Shown piece by piece: positions 23,272 to 44,729 of a stretch of 60,958 nt of DNA. The DNA comes from an uncultured Ruminiclostridium sp. Its GTDB lineage: Bacteria; Bacillota; Clostridia; Oscillospirales; Ruminococcaceae. Below the pieces are notes generated by a model. It ran no database searches. It was not told the origin of the DNA and saw only the letters and a list, made by a program, of their open reading frames with translations. The translations under genes were made by a program, and so were the position numbers. Position 1 is the first letter of the stretch. Each line of letters opens with the position of its first letter. The stretch covers positions 1 through 60,958 of the forward strand of contig CAJOMV010000050.1 of the NCBI GenBank assembly GCA_905235805.1, in the 5' to 3' direction.

Positions 23272-24338
23272 CAGTCGTTACCTCCCATTTCTTTTATCTT
23301 TTCGAGTATCTCTGCCGGAGCGGGGATAACGCCGCCCGTTCTTCCGAAGAATTCAACGGGTCTCGAGCAGTTTATGGCGAGCTTTACGTCGTCTATCATC
23401 TGTCCCATGGACATCTCGACCGTGAGCACCTTCTTAGCGCTCTTGACAGCCTCGTTCAGCTCCTTTACCGGGAACGGATAAAGTGTGACGGGTCTGAATA
23501 CGCCAGCCTTGATACCCTGCTTTCTCGCCTCGTCCACAGCGGACTTCGCAAGTCTTGCGGTGGAGCCGTAGGCAACGACTACGATATCCGCGTCCTCGCA
23601 GTAATCCGCGACAGCCTGTGTCTCGGTCGCTTCGACCTGCTTGTAGCGCTCATAGCGCTCCCTGACAGTGCGCTCGAGCTCGGGAGCCTGTAAGTAGAGG
23701 GAGTTGATTATGTTGTGCTGTCTTTTGTTCTTGTGACCGTTCGCAGCCCACGGCTTGTTTGAAGCGTCGGACATTACGATCTCAGCGTCGTCGAACGCCA
23801 CCGGCTCCATCATCTGACCGAGCAGACCGTCCGCGAGAACTACCGCGGGCATTCTGTACTTGTCAGCGAGGTCGAACGCCTTTGTCACGCAGTCAGCCAT
23901 TTCCTGAACGCTGGAGGGAGCGAGCACGATGATGTGATAATCGCCGTGACCTACGCCCTTGGTGATCTGATAGTAGTCCGCCTGTGAGGGCTGGATACCG
24001 CCGAGACCGGGACCTCCGCGCATTACGTCGATGATGACGCAGGGCAGATCCGCGCCCGCGATGTAGGAGATACCCTCGGATTTAAGGGAAATTCCGGGGG
24101 AGGAGGAGGACGTCATGCAGCGTATACCGGAGCCTGCGCAGCCATAGACCATGTTTATAGCCGCGACCTCACTTTCCGCCTGCAGGAACACGCCGCCCAC
24201 CTTGGGCATTCTCTTGGAGAGATATGCGGCAATCTCCGTCTGGGGAGTTATCGGATAACCGAAGAAGCACTTGCAGCCCGCCCGCAGAGCAGCCTCCGCG
24301 AGAGCCTCATTGCCCTTCATCAAGCTTTTCTCAGCCAT
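23271..24338 (-). CDS. korA: 2-oxoacid:ferredoxin oxidoreductase, alpha subunit
   Basis: A 355-residue alpha subunit with the pyrimidine-binding domain (KGNEALAEAALRAGCKCFFG, YPITPQTEIAAYL at ~residues 26-38) and GIRCMTSSSSPGISLKSEGI. It binds the aminopyrimidine of TPP and coenzyme A side of the reaction with korB. The start overlaps the ferredoxin gene by eight bases. The separate ferredoxin subunit and order D-A-B-C is the usual Kor/Vor layout of Clostridia. Confidence 0.93.
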   Translation of the reverse strand: MAEKSLMKGNEALAEAALRAGCKCFFGYPITPQTEIAAYLSKRMPKVGGVFLQAESEVAAINMVYGCAGSGIRCMTSSSSPGISLKSEGISYIAGADLPCVIIDVMRGGPGLGGIQPSQADYYQITKGVGHGDYHIIVLAPSSVQEMADCVTKAFDLADKYRMPAVVLADGLLGQMMEPVAFDDAEIVMSDASNKPWAANGHKNKRQHNIINSLYLQAPELERTVRERYERYKQVEATETQAVADYCEDADIVVVAYGSTARLAKSAVDEARKQGIKAGVFRPVTLYPFPVKELNEAVKSAKKVLTVEMSMGQMIDDVKLAINCSRPVEFFGRTGGVIPAPAEILEKIKEMGGND

Positions 24339-36464: not shown

Positions 36465-39200
36465 ATGGCAAAAAACGAAAGAAAGCCGGTTGACAGCGTG
36501 GAGGCTCTGGAGGCGGAGCTCAAACGCGTCAGGGAAGCACAGAAAAAGTACTCGCAGTTCACGCAGGAGCAGGTGGATAAGATATTCCTCGCCGCCGCGT
36601 CCGCGGCGAACAAGGCAAGGATAACACTTGCTAAAATGGCTGTCGAGGAGACAGGCATGGGCGTTGTTGAGGACAAGGTCATCAAGAACAACTACGCCGC
36701 CGAGTATATCTACAACGCGTACAAGTTCACAAAGACCTGCGGAGTCATTGAGGAGGACAAGGCTTACGGCATAAAGAAGATAGCCGAGCCTATCGGCGTG
36801 ATCGCCGCTGTTATCCCCACCACAAATCCTACCTCTACCGCGATATTCAAGTCGCTCATCTCCCTAAAGACCCGCAACGGCATTATCTTCAGCCCCCACC
36901 CCCGCGCGAAGAAGTCCACCATCGAAGCGGCAAGGATAGTGTATGAGGCAGCATTGAAGGCTGGCGCTCCCGAGAACATCATCTCATGGATCGACGCGCC
37001 GAGCCTCGATATGACCACCCTCGTTATGAAGGAAGCCGATATTATCCTCGCTACCGGCGGACCCGGTATGGTGAAGGCTGCGTATTCCAGCGGCAAGCCT
37101 GCCCTCGGCGTGGGCGCCGGAAATACCCCCGCCATAATCGACAGATCCGCGGACATCGTGCTCGCGGTCAACTCGATAATCCACTCCAAGACCTTCGACA
37201 ACGGTATGATCTGCGCGTCGGAGCAGTCGGTCATCGTCCACAAGGACATCTATGACAAGGTGCGTGAGGAATTCGCCGCGAGAGGCTGCTATTTCCTCAA
37301 GGGCGCGGAACTCGACAAGGTAAGACGCACTATCATCATCAACGGCGCGCTGAATGCGAAGATAGTCGGACAGAAAGCGGCGACTATCGCTTCTCTTGCG
37401 GGAGTTGAGGTTCCCGAGGGTACGAAGATACTCATAGGCGAGGTTACAAGCGTGGATATCTCCGAGGAATTCGCGCATGAAAAGCTCTCTCCGGTTCTCG
37501 CAATGTACAAGGCTGAGGATATTCAGGACGCGTTCGCAAAGGCGGAACGCCTTATAGCGGACGGCGGCTTCGGACATACCTCCTCCATTTATCTCAATGT
37601 AAGCACGGAGCAGGATATCCTCAACGAATTCTCCGCGAGAATGAAGACCGGACGTATCCTTGTGAATACCCCCTCCTCCCATGGCGGTATCGGAGACCTC
37701 TACAACTTCAAAATGCCCCCGTCACTTACCCTCGGCTGCGGCTCATGGGGCGGCAACAGCGTGAGCGAGAATGTGGGCGTAAAGCACCTGCTCAATGTAA
37801 AGACGGTCGCCGAGAGGAGAGAGAATATGCTTTGGTTCAGAGCACCCGAAAAGGTGTATGTAAAGAAGGGCTGCCTGCCCGTTGCGCTTGACGAGCTGGG
37901 TACAGTCATGGGCAAGAAGAGAGCGTTCATCGTCACCGACAGCTTCCTGTACGGTGCGGGCTTCACAAAGCCGATAACCGACAAGCTCGACGAGCTGGGT
38001 ATAGTTCACACCACGTTCTTCGACGTTGAGCCCGATCCGACGCTCGACAGCGCTAAGGCTGGCGCGGAGCAGATGCGCTCCTTCAAGCCCGATGTGATAA
38101 TAGCTCTCGGCGGCGGCTCGGCTATGGACGCGGCAAAGATAATGTGGGTGCTGTATGAGCACCCCGAGGCTGATTTCAAGGATATGGCTATGCGCTTCAT
38201 AGATATCAGAAAGCGCGTCTATACCTTCCCGAAAATGGGCGAGAAGGCGTACTTCGTGGCCATCCCGACATCTGCCGGCACAGGCTCGGAGGTAACCCCC
38301 TTCGCTGTCATCACCGACAGGGAGGACGGCTGCAAGTATCCGCTGGCGGACTATGAGCTGCTGCCGGATATGGCTATCGTGGACACCGATATGCACATGA
38401 GCGCTCCGAAGGGGCTGACTGCCGCCTCGGGCATAGACGCTGTAACTCACGCTCTCGAGGCTTACGCTTCGGTAATGGCTACCGATTACACCGACGGTCT
38501 CGCTATACAGGCGCTCAAGACTATATTTGAATACCTCCCGCGCGCTTATGAAAACGGACAGAATGACGTCGAGGCACGCGAGAAAATGGCTAACGCGGCT
38601 ACAATGGCGGGTATGGCGTTCGCGAACGCTTTCCTCGGCATTTCCCACTCTCTCGCGCACAAGCTCGGCGCGTATCATCATATCGCTCACGGCGTGGCAA
38701 ACGCGCTCGTTATATGCGACGTAATGCGCTACAACGCTTCCGAGGTTCCCGTAAAAATGGGTACCTTCTCACAGTATGACCACCCGCACACTCTTGAGAG
38801 ATACGCCCAGGTAGCCGATGCACTCGGACTGGGCGGCAAGACGAATGAAGAGAAGCTCGAAAACCTCATCGCGGCAGTTGAGGACCTGAAAAAGAAGATA
38901 GGCATTAAGCCAACTATCGCGGATTACGGCGTTTCGGAGGCTGACTTCCTCGCTACCCTCGACGAGATGACCGAGGCGGCGTTTGACGACCAGTGCACAG
39001 GCGCTAACCCGAGATATCCGCTTATGAGCGAGCTGAAGCAGCTCTACCTGAACGCGTACTACGGAAAGAAGTTCACGGAGATCGAGAAGCCCGACGATAC
39101 GCAGTTCATGGCTGCTCCCGCGAAGCGCGGCAGGAAGTCTGCGGCAGCTCCCGCAGAGGAGAAAAAGCCCGCAAAACGCGGCAGAGCATTGAAGAAGTGA
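36465..39200 (+). CDS. adhE: bifunctional acetaldehyde-CoA/alcohol dehydrogenase AdhE with basic C-terminal tail
   Basis: A 911-residue AdhE that reduces acetyl-CoA to ethanol in two NADH steps and forms spirosome filaments. The N-terminal aldehyde dehydrogenase has the catalytic Cys in DNGMICASEQSV (~residue 250). The C-terminal iron-dependent alcohol dehydrogenase has ALGGGSAMDAAKIMW, DAVTHALEAYASVMATDYTD and HSLAHKLGAYHHIAHGVANA. The last ~30 residues are unusual: two AKRGR repeats within an Ala/Pro/Lys tail (KRGRKSAAAPAEEKKPAKRG), beyond the normal end. A short gap of 17 bases leads to the kinase-like gene. Confidence 0.95.
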   Translation: MAKNERKPVDSVEALEAELKRVREAQKKYSQFTQEQVDKIFLAAASAANKARITLAKMAVEETGMGVVEDKVIKNNYAAEYIYNAYKFTKTCGVIEEDKAYGIKKIAEPIGVIAAVIPTTNPTSTAIFKSLISLKTRNGIIFSPHPRAKKSTIEAARIVYEAALKAGAPENIISWIDAPSLDMTTLVMKEADIILATGGPGMVKAAYSSGKPALGVGAGNTPAIIDRSADIVLAVNSIIHSKTFDNGMICASEQSVIVHKDIYDKVREEFAARGCYFLKGAELDKVRRTIIINGALNAKIVGQKAATIASLAGVEVPEGTKILIGEVTSVDISEEFAHEKLSPVLAMYKAEDIQDAFAKAERLIADGGFGHTSSIYLNVSTEQDILNEFSARMKTGRILVNTPSSHGGIGDLYNFKMPPSLTLGCGSWGGNSVSENVGVKHLLNVKTVAERRENMLWFRAPEKVYVKKGCLPVALDELGTVMGKKRAFIVTDSFLYGAGFTKPITDKLDELGIVHTTFFDVEPDPTLDSAKAGAEQMRSFKPDVIIALGGGSAMDAAKIMWVLYEHPEADFKDMAMRFIDIRKRVYTFPKMGEKAYFVAIPTSAGTGSEVTPFAVITDREDGCKYPLADYELLPDMAIVDTDMHMSAPKGLTAASGIDAVTHALEAYASVMATDYTDGLAIQALKTIFEYLPRAYENGQNDVEAREKMANAATMAGMAFANAFLGISHSLAHKLGAYHHIAHGVANALVICDVMRYNASEVPVKMGTFSQYDHPHTLERYAQVADALGLGGKTNEEKLENLIAAVEDLKKKIGIKPTIADYGVSEADFLATLDEMTEAAFDDQCTGANPRYPLMSELKQLYLNAYYGKKFTEIEKPDDTQFMAAPAKRGRKSAAAPAEEKKPAKRGRALKK

Positions 39201-40129: not shown

Positions 40130-42208
40130 ATGATAAACGAATTTGCTCCCGAATGGGAGGGCTTCAGACCGGGCAGGTGGAGCAAGACCTCCGTTAATGT
40201 CCGGGATTTTATAAACAAGAACTACACCCCGTATGACGGGGACGAGACATTTCTGGAGGGTCCCACGGAGGCTACGAAGAAGCTGTGGGAACAGGTGCTC
40301 GAGCTGTCGAAGCAGGAGAGGGAAGCGGGCGGTGTCCTCGATATGGACACAAAGATCGTTTCCACCATTACGTCTCACGGTGCGGGGTATCTGAACAAGG
40401 AGCTCGAGAAGATCGTCGGCTTGCAGACGGACAAGCCCTTCAAGCGGGCTCTGCAGCCCTTCGGCGGTATAAGAATGGCACAGCAGGCGTGCAAGGAATA
40501 CGGCTATGAGGTGGATCCACAGATAGTCGATATCTTCACTAAGTACCGCAAGACCCATAATCAGGGTGTGTTCGACGCTTATACGCCCGAGATGAGACTT
40601 GCCCGCAAGTCAGCTATCCTCACCGGCTTGCCCGACGCTTACGGCAGAGGACGCATTATCGGCGATTACCGGCGTATCGCGCTGTACGGCGTGGACAGGC
40701 TCATTGAGGACAAGCTTCACCAGAAGGATACACACTTTGTGCGTATGACCTCGGTAAACATAAGACAGCGTGAGGAGCTCTCGGAGCAGATACGCGCGCT
40801 CGAGGAGCTTATCGAGCTCGGGAAGATATACGGCTTCGATATATCCAAGCCCGCGAAGAATGCCCGCGAGGCGGTGCAGTGGCTGTACTTCGGATACCTC
40901 GCCGCTGTCAAGGAGCAGAACGGCGCTGCAATGAGCCTCGGACGCACCTCTACCTTCCTCGACATCTATATCCAGCGTGACCTCGACAGGGGTTTGATAA
41001 CCGAGAGCGAGGCGCAGGAGCTCATCGACCACTTCATCATGAAGCTTCGTATCGTCAAGTTTGCCCGCACTCCCGAGTACAACGCCCTCTTCTCCGGCGA
41101 CCCCACATGGGTAACGGAATCTATCGGCGGAGTTACCGTGGACGGACAGCACATGGTCACCAAAAACTCCTTCAGATACCTCAATACCCTCAACAATCTC
41201 GGCACCGCTCCCGAGCCGAACCTCACCGTGCTGTGGTCGAAGAGGCTCCCGAGGAATTTCAAGGTGTTCTGCGCGAAAATGTCGATAAAATCGTCCTCCA
41301 TACAGTATGAGAACGACGATATGATGCGTGTGACTCACGGCGATGATTACGCTATCGCGTGCTGTGTGTCCTCCATGGTGGTGGGCAAGGAAATGCAGTT
41401 CTTCGGCGCGAGAGCGAACCTCGCGAAGTGCCTGCTGTACGCGATAAACGGCGGTGTGGACGAGGTGCTCAAAATTCAGGTAGGTCCGAAGTACCGTCCC
41501 GTGGAGGGGGATTACCTCGACTACGACGACGTAATGGACAAGTACGACCAGATGATGGAATGGCTCGCGGAGCTGTATGTGAATACCCTCAACGTTATCC
41601 ACTATATGCACGACAAGTACAGCTACGAGAGACTGCAAATGGCACTGCATGACCGCGACGTGAAGCGGTATTTCGCGACGGGCATCGCGGGACTTTCTGT
41701 AGTCGCGGACTCGCTCAGCGCCATAAAGTACGCGAAGGTGAAGTGCATACGCGACGAGAACGGCATAGTCGTAGACTACGAGACCGAGGGGGATTTCCCG
41801 AAGTACGGCAACGACGACGACAGGGTAGACCAGATAGCCGTGGATATCGTGCGTATGTTTATGGACAAGATCAGGAAGCACCATACCTACCGCGGCAGCA
41901 TACCGACAATGTCGATACTCACCATAACCTCGAACGTGGTGTACGGGAAGAAGACCGGCAATACTCCCGACGGGAGAAAGCACGGCGTTCCGCTCGCTCC
42001 GGGCGCGAACCCCATGCACGGGCGCGATACGAACGGTGCCGTGGCTTCGCTGTCATCGGTGGCTAAGCTGCCGTTCAGACACGCGCAGGACGGTATATCG
42101 AACACATTCTCGATAATCCCCGACGCGCTCGGAAAGGATATGAAGGTGTTCTCGGGAGAGATAGACCTTGACGCGCTCGCGCGGGAGGCGGCAAACGGTG
42201 AACTCTGA
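40130..42208 (+). CDS. pflB: pyruvate formate-lyase core subunit lacking the glycyl-radical domain
   Basis: A 692-residue pyruvate formate-lyase barrel that would convert pyruvate and CoA to acetyl-CoA and formate. The catalytic cysteine pair is Cys411-Cys412 in [15 protein letters not shown], and [12 protein letters not shown] follows. The N-terminal pattern [20 protein letters not shown] is typical. The protein stops shortly after [20 protein letters not shown] and [10 protein letters not shown], exactly where intact enzymes (~750 residues) continue into the radical domain. That domain is a separate gene at 42408-42656. An upstream in-frame reading (40031) would pass through the hairpin repeat; the ATG at 40130 with AAGGGA is the natural start. 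Confidence 0.93.
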
Positions 42209-42392
42209 TAACAGCGAAAGACTCGATGCCGAAAAGCTCGCGGAGCTGATAGACAGCCTTATGGAGGGCGGAAGTCAGCACGTCGATATAGGTATCGGCG
42301 AAGAAACGAAAGTCCGTACTATGAACAGCACGGACTGCGGAAAAAAGGGCGCGTGCGCGATACCGACCTTCGATTTCGGCGACGCGGAGTGA
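42198..42392 (+). CDS. small protein resembling the N-terminal half of a glycyl-radical domain
   Basis: A 64-residue protein starting at GTG with GGGAGG nine bases upstream; it overlaps the pfl core stop by 11 bases. Residues 9-40 ([17 protein letters not shown], then [11 protein letters not shown]) align with residues 8-36 of the downstream radical-domain protein ([18 protein letters not shown], then [11 protein letters not shown]). It has no RVSGYAV glycine loop; instead it ends with two cysteines (Cys47, Cys53, in [11 protein letters not shown]) and an acidic tail. I know no named family for it. A regulatory, chaperone or docking role with the split enzyme is inferred from position and similarity only. 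Confidence 0.7.
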
Positions 42393-42407
42393 AAAGGAGC
42401 TTTATAT

Positions 42408-42656
42408 ATGGAAAAATTACCGAACGATCTGCAGGCTGAAAACCTTGTGGAGCTTATCGACGGATATGTGGAAAAGGGCGGACATCACCTCAACGTGAAC
42501 GTGTTCACCCGTGACACGCTGCTCGACGCTCAGGCGCACCCCGAGAAATATCCGCAGCTTACGGTGCGTGTCTCGGGTTACGCGGTGAACTTCATCAAGC
42601 TGACCAAGGAGCAGCAGGACGACGTTATCTCCCGCACCTTCCACGAAAAGATATGA
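42408..42656 (+). CDS. stand-alone glycyl-radical domain of pyruvate formate-lyase (GrcA-like)
   Basis: An 82-residue protein equal to the C-terminal domain of pyruvate formate-lyase. The glycyl-radical loop [12 protein letters not shown] places the radical on Gly57, followed by [19 protein letters not shown], the canonical enzyme end. The region [20 protein letters not shown] and HPEKYPQ precede it. E. coli GrcA/YfiD (127 residues) is a repair partner that replaces an oxygen-damaged domain; here the core has no such domain, so this protein would be needed for any activity. AAGGAGC lies seven bases before the ATG, showing an independent translation start. The activase gene follows 58 bases later. 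Confidence 0.92.
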
Positions 42657-42714: not shown

Positions 42715-43467
42715 GTGAACGGATATATCCATTCCGTGGAGACCTTTGGGACCGTGGACGGTCCGGGAGTGCGGTTCGTGGTTTTCTTTCAGGGCTGTCC
42801 CATGAGGTGCCTCTACTGCCACAACCCCGACACATGGGAGCCGGGCAGGGGAGAGGAAGTGTCCGCGGAAGCACTGCTGGAGCGGTTTGAGAAGAACCTC
42901 GCATTCTACCGCGGCGGCGGTATCACCTGCAGCGGCGGTGAGCCGATGATGCAGCTCACCTTCCTCACGGAGCTGTTTGAGCAGGCTCATGAGAGAGGTA
43001 TCAACACCTGTCTCGATACGTCGGGCATCTGCTTTACGCCGGACGATACCGCCTCCGCGCAGAGGCTCCTTGCCGCCACAGACCTCGTCATGCTCGATAT
43101 CAAGCATATCGACGACGACGCTCACAGGAGGCTCACGGGACACTCGAACGAGCATATACTCAAATTCGCGGAGTTCATCTCGGAGCAGGGCACGGACCTC
43201 TGGGTGCGTCATGTCATCGTTCCCGGCTTCACCGACAGCGAGGACGAGCAGACCCGGCTCGGGTACTTCATCGGAGGACTGAAAACGCTGAAGGCGGTAG
43301 ATGTGCTGCCGTATCATGATATGGGCAAGAGAAAGTATGTGGAGCTCGGCATACCCTATCCTCTCGGCGACACGCCTCCGGTGTCAAAGGAGACTGCGCG
43401 GGAGGCTTACGGGCATATACTTGCCGGCATCAAAAAAAGACTGCGGGTGAACTACAGGACGCAGTAA
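42715..43467 (+). CDS. pflA: pyruvate formate-lyase activating enzyme (radical SAM)
   Basis: A 250-residue radical SAM activase that makes the glycyl radical. The cluster motif is FFQGCPMRCLYCHNPDTW (~residues 22-39), preceded by GTVDGPGVRFV, with GGGITCSGGEPMMQ and LDTSG after it. Length matches the family (~245). Start is GTG with AAAGGAG nine bases upstream. Its position directly after the stand-alone radical-domain gene makes that small protein its likely substrate, either free or bound to the core. Confidence 0.95.
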   Translation: MNGYIHSVETFGTVDGPGVRFVVFFQGCPMRCLYCHNPDTWEPGRGEEVSAEALLERFEKNLAFYRGGGITCSGGEPMMQLTFLTELFEQAHERGINTCLDTSGICFTPDDTASAQRLLAATDLVMLDIKHIDDDAHRRLTGHSNEHILKFAEFISEQGTDLWVRHVIVPGFTDSEDEQTRLGYFIGGLKTLKAVDVLPYHDMGKRKYVELGIPYPLGDTPPVSKETAREAYGHILAGIKKRLRVNYRTQ

Positions 43468-44129: not shown

Positions 44130-44729
44130 ATGAGCGCTCTCGATAAACAAATATTTTTTACAAAGCTGAAAAAGATACTGATACTGAAGCTTGGCGAAGC
44201 AAAGGGGCTCGAAGTCTGGCGCGACGCTTCTGCTGAATATGATAAGATATTGCGGGAAAATCCCGAGCTGAGAAAGCATAAGGGCGCTATGGCGATACCG
44301 GCAGTTGCGCTGTACCGTGCGTTCAGGGCTCATGGCTTAAAGGCGGAGGAAACGCTGAAACGATACGGTACATACATGGGCAGAAGGATCGGTAAGGCTG
44401 CACATAAGCTTACATCACTGCCGAATGTCGATCACAGGCTGTGGGCAAATATCGAAAAGATCGTTGACAGCGCAAGCAGTGAGAAAAACGGTTACAAGCG
44501 CCGGTTAGTCAGCGAACCGCCTGAGATGTACGGTGTGGATATCCTGTCATGTCCCTATCACGAGATATGCAGGGAGCTCGGCTGTGAAAAAGCCGTTCTG
44601 TGTATTTGCGGCATGGACAAGGAGTATATGAAGCACTTTCACCATTTCAGATATGAGCGCACGACCGCGGTTTCCGAAGGCGCGGAATGCTGCGATTATC
44701 GCATTAGGTTCGACCCGGATAAAGAATGA
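44130..44729 (+). CDS. L-2-amino-thiazoline-4-carboxylic acid hydrolase-like protein
   Basis: A 199-residue protein of the ATC-hydrolase-like family, many of which have unknown roles. The C-terminal part has the family pattern with clustered cysteines: CPYHEICRELGCEKAVLCIC (~residues 147-166), then FHHFRYERTTAVSEGAECCD (~174-193). The N-terminal 80 residues are helical. ATC hydrolase itself opens a thiazoline ring to give N-carbamoylcysteine; whether this paralogue does so is unknown. GGAGGGG gives a strong start. Confidence 0.72.
   Translation: MSALDKQIFFTKLKKILILKLGEAKGLEVWRDASAEYDKILRENPELRKHKGAMAIPAVALYRAFRAHGLKAEETLKRYGTYMGRRIGKAAHKLTSLPNVDHRLWANIEKIVDSASSEKNGYKRRLVSEPPEMYGVDILSCPYHEICRELGCEKAVLCICGMDKEYMKHFHHFRYERTTAVSEGAECCDYRIRFDPDKE

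Follow-up and report, generated by a model that had tools for sequence, protein, structure and literature searches.

How can a pyruvate formate-lyase (PFL) work when its radical glycine and its catalytic cysteines are encoded by different genes? PFL is the textbook glycyl radical enzyme, and it has long been assumed to be made of one chain. The question is raised by a contig of 60,958 nucleotides from an uncultured Ruminiclostridium sp. of the Ruminococcaceae, a gut or rumen bacterium (GenBank assembly GCA_905235805.1, contig CAJOMV010000050.1), called here the window, i.e. the whole stretch of DNA that was analyzed. Its pflB gene encodes a PFL core without the radical domain. The radical glycine is not in the core chain: it is Gly57 of a separate 82-aa protein encoded downstream, and a third small gene, called here the accessory gene, lies between the two. 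We propose, with a probability of about 0.72, that this locus encodes an obligately multi-part PFL, in which the radical subunit would dock non-covalently and a cysteine-bearing accessory part would help; both the assembly and the accessory role are what we infer. The locus is composed as follows.

40130..42208, + strand: PFL core, pflB without the radical domain, 692 aa (TIGR01255, 1136.6 bits)
41360..41365, + strand: codons of the catalytic Cys411-Cys412, invariant in the core alignment and aligned to the E. coli Cys-Cys
42149..42205, + strand: core tail of 19 residues, type '-FxGDLDI-', no Cys
42183..42188, + strand: GGGAGG, Shine-Dalgarno-like (by eye), 9 nt 5' of the accessory GTG
42198..42392, + strand: accessory (middle) gene, 64 aa, GTG start, 11-nt overlap with the core stop
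42336..42356, + strand: codons of accessory Cys47 to Cys53 (CGKKGAC), the conserved Cys pair
42394..42399, + strand: AAGGAG, Shine-Dalgarno-like (by eye), for the radical subunit
42408..42656, + strand: stand-alone glycyl-radical subunit GrcA3, 82 aa, no Cys (NF038360)
42576..42578, + strand: codon of the radical Gly57 (RVSGYAV), invariant in a 27-row alignment
42715..43467, + strand: pflA, PFL-activating radical SAM enzyme, 250 aa (TIGR02493, 282.5 bits, cut-off 231.75)

Core and radical subunit

The core passes the PFL equivalog TIGR01255 well above its cut-off of 994.2 bits, but on model positions 1-665 of 744 only. The 82-aa protein covers positions 663-744, and the two proteins together span the model from end to end. 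The core contains Cys411-Cys412 and Arg428, which aligns with E. coli Arg435, a residue that we take to have a role in PFL. A preliminary description of this DNA, made from the letters alone, had recognized a 692-residue core with the Cys pair and without the radical domain, followed by an independent 82-residue gene with its own ribosome binding site and Gly57 in RVSGYAV. Both are confirmed. It had also placed the end of the core right at the end of the PFL homology, which has to be corrected: in the alignment, with numbering set by G734, homology to E. coli PflB stops at the equivalent of Val680, and the last 19 core residues form a tail unrelated to PFL.

The 82-aa protein is a member of GrcA3 (NF038360, rad_fix_GrcA3; 164.4 bits, cut-off 158), a model that covers the radical subunit alone. 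It falls under the cut-offs of GrcA (TIGR04365, 94.8 against 170 bits) and GrcA2 (106.8 against 145). Cysteine is absent from the window protein and was found in 2 of 68 relatives. The stand-alone radical protein is thus already known as a family: NCBI provides the GrcA3 model, and RefSeq labels the pair as pflB and grcA3 in a Collinsella record. The statement of the preliminary description that GrcA/YfiD is only a spare part for damaged enzyme holds for E. coli and T4, but this model and this record already go further than that. Among the papers listed by our literature searches, which covered few of the subscription journals, none describes a PFL that is split by nature or the accessory gene, and none names GrcA3.

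We then considered whether the genome contains another PFL. In the assembly (80.7% complete, 134 contigs) PF02901 has one match, the truncated core, and no second, intact PFL was found; matches to the glycyl-radical domain are restricted to the PFL locus and one NrdD-like gene. That separate polypeptides must assemble into the enzyme is therefore supported, since no intact PFL was found and since an engineered E. coli pair of similar design is competent. This part of the preliminary description, assembly from two proteins, stands as far as the separate polypeptides are concerned; it had overlooked the third conserved gene at 42198-42392. The genome also has genes of the pyruvate:ferredoxin oxidoreductase type, so that PFL need not be the sole route to acetyl-CoA. 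One match to this family (PF01855) lies in the window at 23643-24296 on the - strand, and a homologue is found in a frame of 1180 aa elsewhere in the genome.

Accessory gene and cysteine tails

The accessory open reading frame (ORF) begins inside the last core codons. Measured from the core stop, and with the longest possible starts, the beginning of the ORF varies between loci from -56 to +191 nt, and this variability argues for independent initiation rather than a frameshift. The protein consists of a helix-strand part, then a Cys motif and an acidic C-terminal end. Its residues 7-36 align with residues 6-35 of the radical subunit (hhalign: probability 92.4, P 5.3e-7); the shared region corresponds to the helix and strand that close the PFL barrel, the glycine loop being excluded, and the conserved Cys pair stands where the radical domain has that loop. 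On this evidence the accessory protein is a homologue of the helix-strand half of the radical domain of PFL. Among 35 aligned accessory proteins, Asp19, Cys53 and Pro56 are invariant, and Gly25, His28 and Ala52 nearly so. The motif C-x(3-9)-[AP]C is present in 56 of 57 accessory proteins, L062 having a variant. Within the last 60 residues, two Cys are found in 24 proteins, three in 27 and four in 6; the window protein has two only (Cys47 and Cys53).

As a blind test, the accessory profile was searched against 398 genomes of the phylum, 13 of which were matched. Two matches, in the own genome and in G283, are true accessory genes, each accompanied by a second match in the radical subunit. The other 11 lie inside frames of 744-790 aa; ten of these are, by reading, the PFL radical domain, and one (L226) was not read clearly as such. 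Conversely, the GrcA3 model gives weak matches beside the radical gene in two genomes with an accessory gene (G596, E 3.3e-5; G597, E 3.8e-4), and Pfam Gly_radical matches one of 35 accessory proteins (E 0.0027). NCBIfam models gave no match to the accessory protein, and searches of Pfam and the PDB gave no likeness to an Fe-S subunit. The unrelated Pfam families matched by individual accessory proteins (E 0.007-0.1) are scattered and at chance level, as are the PDB matches (troponin C, E 0.3).

A protein search found the accessory gene in 13 of 197 genomes of the same family, in all 13 cases on the same contig and adjoining the stand-alone radical gene. Inspection of the gap between the core and radical genes recovered it in 23 of 32 split loci of the family and in 34 of 68 split loci of a set of named genomes. 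To count cysteines, 102 loci were gathered (32 family, 68 named, L163 and L197) and 100 were retained; as L073 and L131 are one strain, these represent 99 distinct loci. L093 was left out, having an accessory gene and a masked core, and so was L069, which has an in-frame stop and neither the gene nor a Cys tail. The former had been considered as a fusion of core and accessory protein, a candidate dropped when its translation showed masked runs of N and a frame change. In the latter (G190) the stop comes after about 98 codons, which points to a pseudogene or a sequence error.

The accessory gene is present in 57 of these 100 loci, and in none of the 57 does the core tail carry Cys. Among the 43 loci without the gene, 39 have a core tail with at least two Cys, the Cys tails holding 2 to 4. 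Altogether, 96 of 100 loci thus keep cysteines, either in trans or in cis (57/57 and 39/43). These tails are often worded like the accessory protein: compare the accessory protein of L117, ...LDCAGGNMACKVPTLHEGLD, with the core tail of L137, ...LDCAGGACFSPTLFEGLD.

Distribution and history of the split loci

The preliminary description had suggested looking for the same gene order in related genomes. A stand-alone radical subunit above the GrcA3 cut-off was found in 32 of 197 genomes of the family, always in frames of 81-138 aa, with a PFL core upstream in all 32 (that of L069 with its in-frame stop). The other GrcA3 matches of at least 100 bits among those listed lie in long frames. It is in this family set that the absence of a fused PFL beside the split one was counted: among the matches listed, none of the 32 split genomes shows a second match of at least 100 bits, and 27 have a single match. 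In a sample of the class, 21 of 391 genomes exceed the GrcA3 cut-off among the matches listed, with frames of 78-106 aa, and two near misses are in short frames. The locus also includes the activase in most cases, pflA being downstream in 23 of 32 family loci and in 44 of the 61 named loci with enough flank.

The named genomes were the best 80 of 577 confirmed loci, picked by likeness to the window, so that their shares are not frequencies. Seventy-eight are stand-alone, one is fused (Enterococcus casseliflavus) and one is at a contig edge; a core lies just upstream in 68 of the 78. These 68 are labelled Bacillota (58), Melainabacteria/Cyanobacteriota (6) and Actinomycetota (1), one being unlabelled; the remaining two, one Bacteroidota and one Pseudomonadota, are labels of metagenome-assembled genomes (MAGs), and the tree groups both with Gastranaerophilales. 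Split loci occur in Ruminococcus flavefaciens, R. albus KH2T6, R. bicirculans 80/3, Claveliimonas bilis, Clostridium sp. E02, Beduini massiliensis and Lancefieldella rimae, including two finished replicons, the complete chromosome of C. bilis and a complete replicon of R. bicirculans 80/3. The objections anticipated in the preliminary description do not hold: no second PFL was found in the own, 80.7% complete genome, and the locus is both conserved and present on finished replicons.

A tree was built from 121 cores with tails removed (quick search, midpoint root). One clade contains 95 split and 3 fused cores (SH-aLRT 100), whereas the bare split pair L157 and L197 lies outside. The fused PFLs nested in the split clade are L080 (G122), L180 (G523) and L181 (G519). 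Split and fused forms also alternate among close kin: G132, of the window's own genus, is fused, and genera g81 and g108 have one of each. Two origins of splitting with some re-fusions would be the simplest reading of this tree, although not a proven one. In L080 the former junction carries an insert with Cys, which looks like the trace of a re-fusion. Some residues in which split cores differ from fused ones (among them His403, Ser415 and Glu421) also occur in the fused members of the same clade, and thus mark the lineage and not the splitting. In the bare cores L157 and L197 a third Cys occupies position 415, three residues past the catalytic pair; this position is Ser in split cores and Ala or Pro in fused ones.

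Selection was estimated from the ratio of nonsynonymous to synonymous substitution rates (dN/dS, Nei-Gojobori) in 16 chosen close pairs, many with dS above 1 and some saturated. It ranges from 0.011 to 0.095 for the core (15 of 16 pairs computable), from 0.040 to 0.257 for the accessory gene (14 of 16) and from 0 to 0.081 for the radical subunit (14 of 16). The three genes are all under purifying selection, and the accessory gene evolves fastest.

Two further observations concern unusual copies. Five Gastranaerophilales loci (L101, L102, L112, L123, L136; genomes G582, G583, G584, G587, G589) belong to genomes with two stand-alone radical-subunit genes each, one beside the truncated core and the second alone on another contig; the lone copy might serve the split enzyme as a genuine spare part. 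Bare split PFLs are also found in a collection of viral contigs. In L207:2486-5264 (IMGVR_UViG_3300031992_000074, 79 kb) and L223, a gene for a 77-aa radical subunit precedes a 675-aa core that has three in-frame TGA, two of them seen or inferred where Trp is expected; by eye, an NrdG-like gene comes before and ThyX-like and gyrase-like genes after. L224:3001-5294 (IMGVR_UViG_3300028591_000126, 110 kb) has, in the standard code, a split core of 680 aa and a 77-aa radical subunit, of the same bare type as the bacterial L157 and L197.

The neighbourhood of the locus in the window is as follows.

36465-39200, + strand: alcohol/aldehyde dehydrogenase gene (window ORF)
between the alcohol/aldehyde dehydrogenase gene and the pflB core, + strand: small kinase-like gene
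3' of pflA, + strand: methyltransferase gene

A match to PF14196 (L-2-amino-thiazoline-4-carboxylic acid hydrolase) lies near the PFL operon, at 44130-44729. No Rfam family was found in the window. Promoter-like sites are at chance level in the window, and terminator-like sites number 7 for 2.9 expected.

Assembly, rival explanations and meaning

The window locus was compared with known systems. It shares with E. coli PflB (2PFL) the core homology to Val680, the equivalents of Cys418-419 and Arg435, and the adjacent pflA; it differs by the radical glycine on another polypeptide, the new core tail and the third small gene. With E. coli YfiD/GrcA and phage T4 Y06I the likeness is a stand-alone glycyl-radical domain acting in trans, YfiD requiring a core partner and PflA. 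Here, however, no intact PFL to repair was found, the 60-residue N-terminal half is missing, and the gene lies between core and activase. E. coli PflB-G734A together with GrcA is reported to give intermediate amounts of formate (excerpted text of PMC12338860).

The closest design is an engineered one. In the sections available of Andorfer et al. 2021 (PMC8683613), a truncated core, tPFL (1-695), is combined with YfiD or truncYfiD (61-127) and shows normal turnover once activated; tPFL:truncYfiD has nearly the same two-chain design as the window locus. It is activated less well in E. coli than the pair of YfiD and cPFL, which retains residues 696-733: the same sections report 15.9 uM radical installed for cPFL:YfiD, against 0.5 uM for tPFL:YfiD and 2.7 uM for tPFL:truncYfiD, and residues 696-733 of the cleaved core are taken by the authors as a recognition element. 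As a two-chain PFL is workable in E. coli but poorly activated, the natural one might supply a substitute for this element, and the accessory protein, being homologous to part of the 696-733 segment, is the natural candidate. Most natural relatives differ from the engineered pair by having the accessory protein or a Cys tail, and the natural split precedes the helix at about 684-693 (positions counted by eye).

On this basis the following mechanism can be proposed. PflA would install the radical at Gly57 of the 82-aa protein; this subunit would dock in the core like the C-terminal domain of an ordinary PFL and pass the radical to Cys411/412. The accessory protein, or the Cys-bearing core tail in relatives without it, would sit near the barrel mouth. 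It would most likely be the counterpart of residues 696-733 of oxygen-cleaved E. coli PFL in their action toward YfiD, aiding the capture of the radical subunit and its presentation for activation, and its cysteines may add a redox or metal function; a redox latch, a metal site or a guard of the open barrel are speculations. If the radical subunit were damaged, this piece of 82 residues could be exchanged; both the exchange and any benefit under oxygen are hypotheses.

Docking was examined by AlphaFold2 on the read-through chain of a Ruminococcus locus (L133), in which core, accessory protein and radical subunit share one frame; stops were read as Gly. Rows containing the accessory protein and radical subunit were excluded from both alignments used for folding, because MAFFT had misplaced them on the core start. 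A first run (mean predicted local distance difference test, pLDDT, 61.3) was not used. The second, with 28 aligned rows, reached a mean pLDDT of 76.7 and a predicted template-modelling score of 0.79, and was used for radical-subunit docking only: 52 of 67 ten-residue blocks of the core have a pLDDT of at least 80, and the radical subunit ranges from 39 to 82. In Foldseek the model superposes on 2pfl_A with a template-modelling (TM) score of 0.93, normalised by 759 residues, and a root mean square deviation of 2.2 A. As the core equivalent alone (680 residues) reaches at most 0.90, part of the radical subunit is predicted to be placed as in an ordinary PFL.

Several observations weigh against an obligately multi-part enzyme with a helping accessory part. 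The predicted docking gives weak support, being helped by the fused rows of the alignment and the training of AlphaFold on PFL, and the accessory region has block pLDDT values of 29-43, so that its placement is not given by the model. L071, L074, L157 and L197 have neither the accessory gene nor a Cys tail, as do L069 and the Collinsella locus L204 outside the count; the accessory part is thus not strictly needed for a split PFL. Placed on the tree, the cis/trans rule is backed by 3 well-supported contrasts that are independent of each other (median p 0.25), a number too small to reach significance, which makes it a striking pattern, not a proven correlation. C. bilis (L177, G593) has a fused PFL of 756 aa besides the split one. 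In the same sections of PMC8683613, the engineered pair closest to the natural design, tPFL:truncYfiD, still reaches 2.7 uM radical without the 696-733 element. Finally, in E. coli that segment is covalently on the core, whereas its counterpart here is a free protein.

The alternative that survives best is neutral gene fission, which is possible, although we consider it clearly less probable than a multi-part enzyme with a working accessory part. PFL would have been split once or a few times, the pieces still fitting, with no gain in regulation or against oxygen, and the accessory protein would be the leftover of a duplicated radical domain. The bare form without Cys tail or accessory gene (L157, L197) agrees with this account, and so do the fused L080, L180 and L181, which share nearly all signature residues of the split clade around them and look like re-fusions, as if splitting were reversible. 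A mere leftover would, however, decay, while the accessory gene is under purifying selection with invariant Cys and Pro, and 96 of 100 loci retain cysteines on either the accessory protein or the core tail. The split as an adaptation to oxygen, an idea of the preliminary description, is not established.

A more specific and tentative proposal, within the multi-part enzyme, is that the accessory part acts as a decoy radical domain. Being a duplicated helix-strand half whose Cys pair replaces the glycine loop, it would fill or protect the open barrel mouth while the radical subunit is absent during activation or exchange, keep the catalytic Cys reduced or capped, and then hand over; it would do so in trans in 57 loci and as a core tail in 39.

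Somewhat more doubtful than fission is the reading in which the accessory protein or tail provides a metal site, as do the Fe-S subunits of benzylsuccinate synthase (BSS) and 4-hydroxyphenylacetate decarboxylase, and serves to tune radical transfer, not docking. Those subunits, too, are small proteins with Cys that accompany a glycyl radical enzyme (GRE), the accessory ORFs and Cys tails hold 2-4 Cys, and BSS-beta reportedly promotes the formation of the thiyl radical (PMC12590467, in part). According to the same partial text those subunits bind [4Fe-4S] clusters, with HiPIP-like folds in BSS. Here, however, the window protein has two Cys, like 24 of the 57 accessory ORFs, which is too few for one four-Cys cluster per chain, although a site shared by two chains is possible and 6 of 57 relatives' ORFs have four; moreover the homology is to the radical domain of the GRE itself, and no Fe-S subunit was found by sequence.

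It is very unlikely that the core is a damaged gene and that the 82-residue protein serves as a spare part of the ordinary GrcA type. The name of its family, autonomous glycyl radical cofactor, and the five Gastranaerophilales genomes with an extra copy away from the core would suit such a role, but there is no intact PFL found to be repaired, nearly all of about 100 loci have a core that extends equally far and is under strong purifying selection, and the 82-residue protein, below the GrcA and GrcA2 cut-offs, does not have the N-terminal half of YfiD. A frameshift artefact of sequencing or assembly in one MAG, conceivable for an incomplete assembly of 134 contigs, is refuted by the many genomes with this arrangement, the finished replicons of C. 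bilis and R. bicirculans 80/3 among them, by the variable intergenic spacing and by the RefSeq annotation of both proteins in Collinsella.

A 2025 paper describes most GREs, including PFL, as homodimers of a single polypeptide, and considers that more accessory subunits may be unannotated (PMC12590467, in part). The split loci make the one-chain assumption for PFL testable against a multi-part enzyme, and with them a central step of fermentation gains a conserved accessory gene. They also illustrate that the automatic label 'cofactor' can hide an essential subunit. If the decoy proposal were true, it would describe a redox-gated PFL with an exchangeable radical and a new class of GRE accessory subunit. 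A natural split PFL could explain the importance that residues 696-733 have when YfiD is activated in E. coli. Occurring in bacteria of the rumen and gut (Ruminococcus, Lachnospiraceae, Erysipelotrichaceae, Coriobacteriia and Gastranaerophilales), it would allow radical installation, docking and oxygen damage to be studied on separate, mixable proteins.

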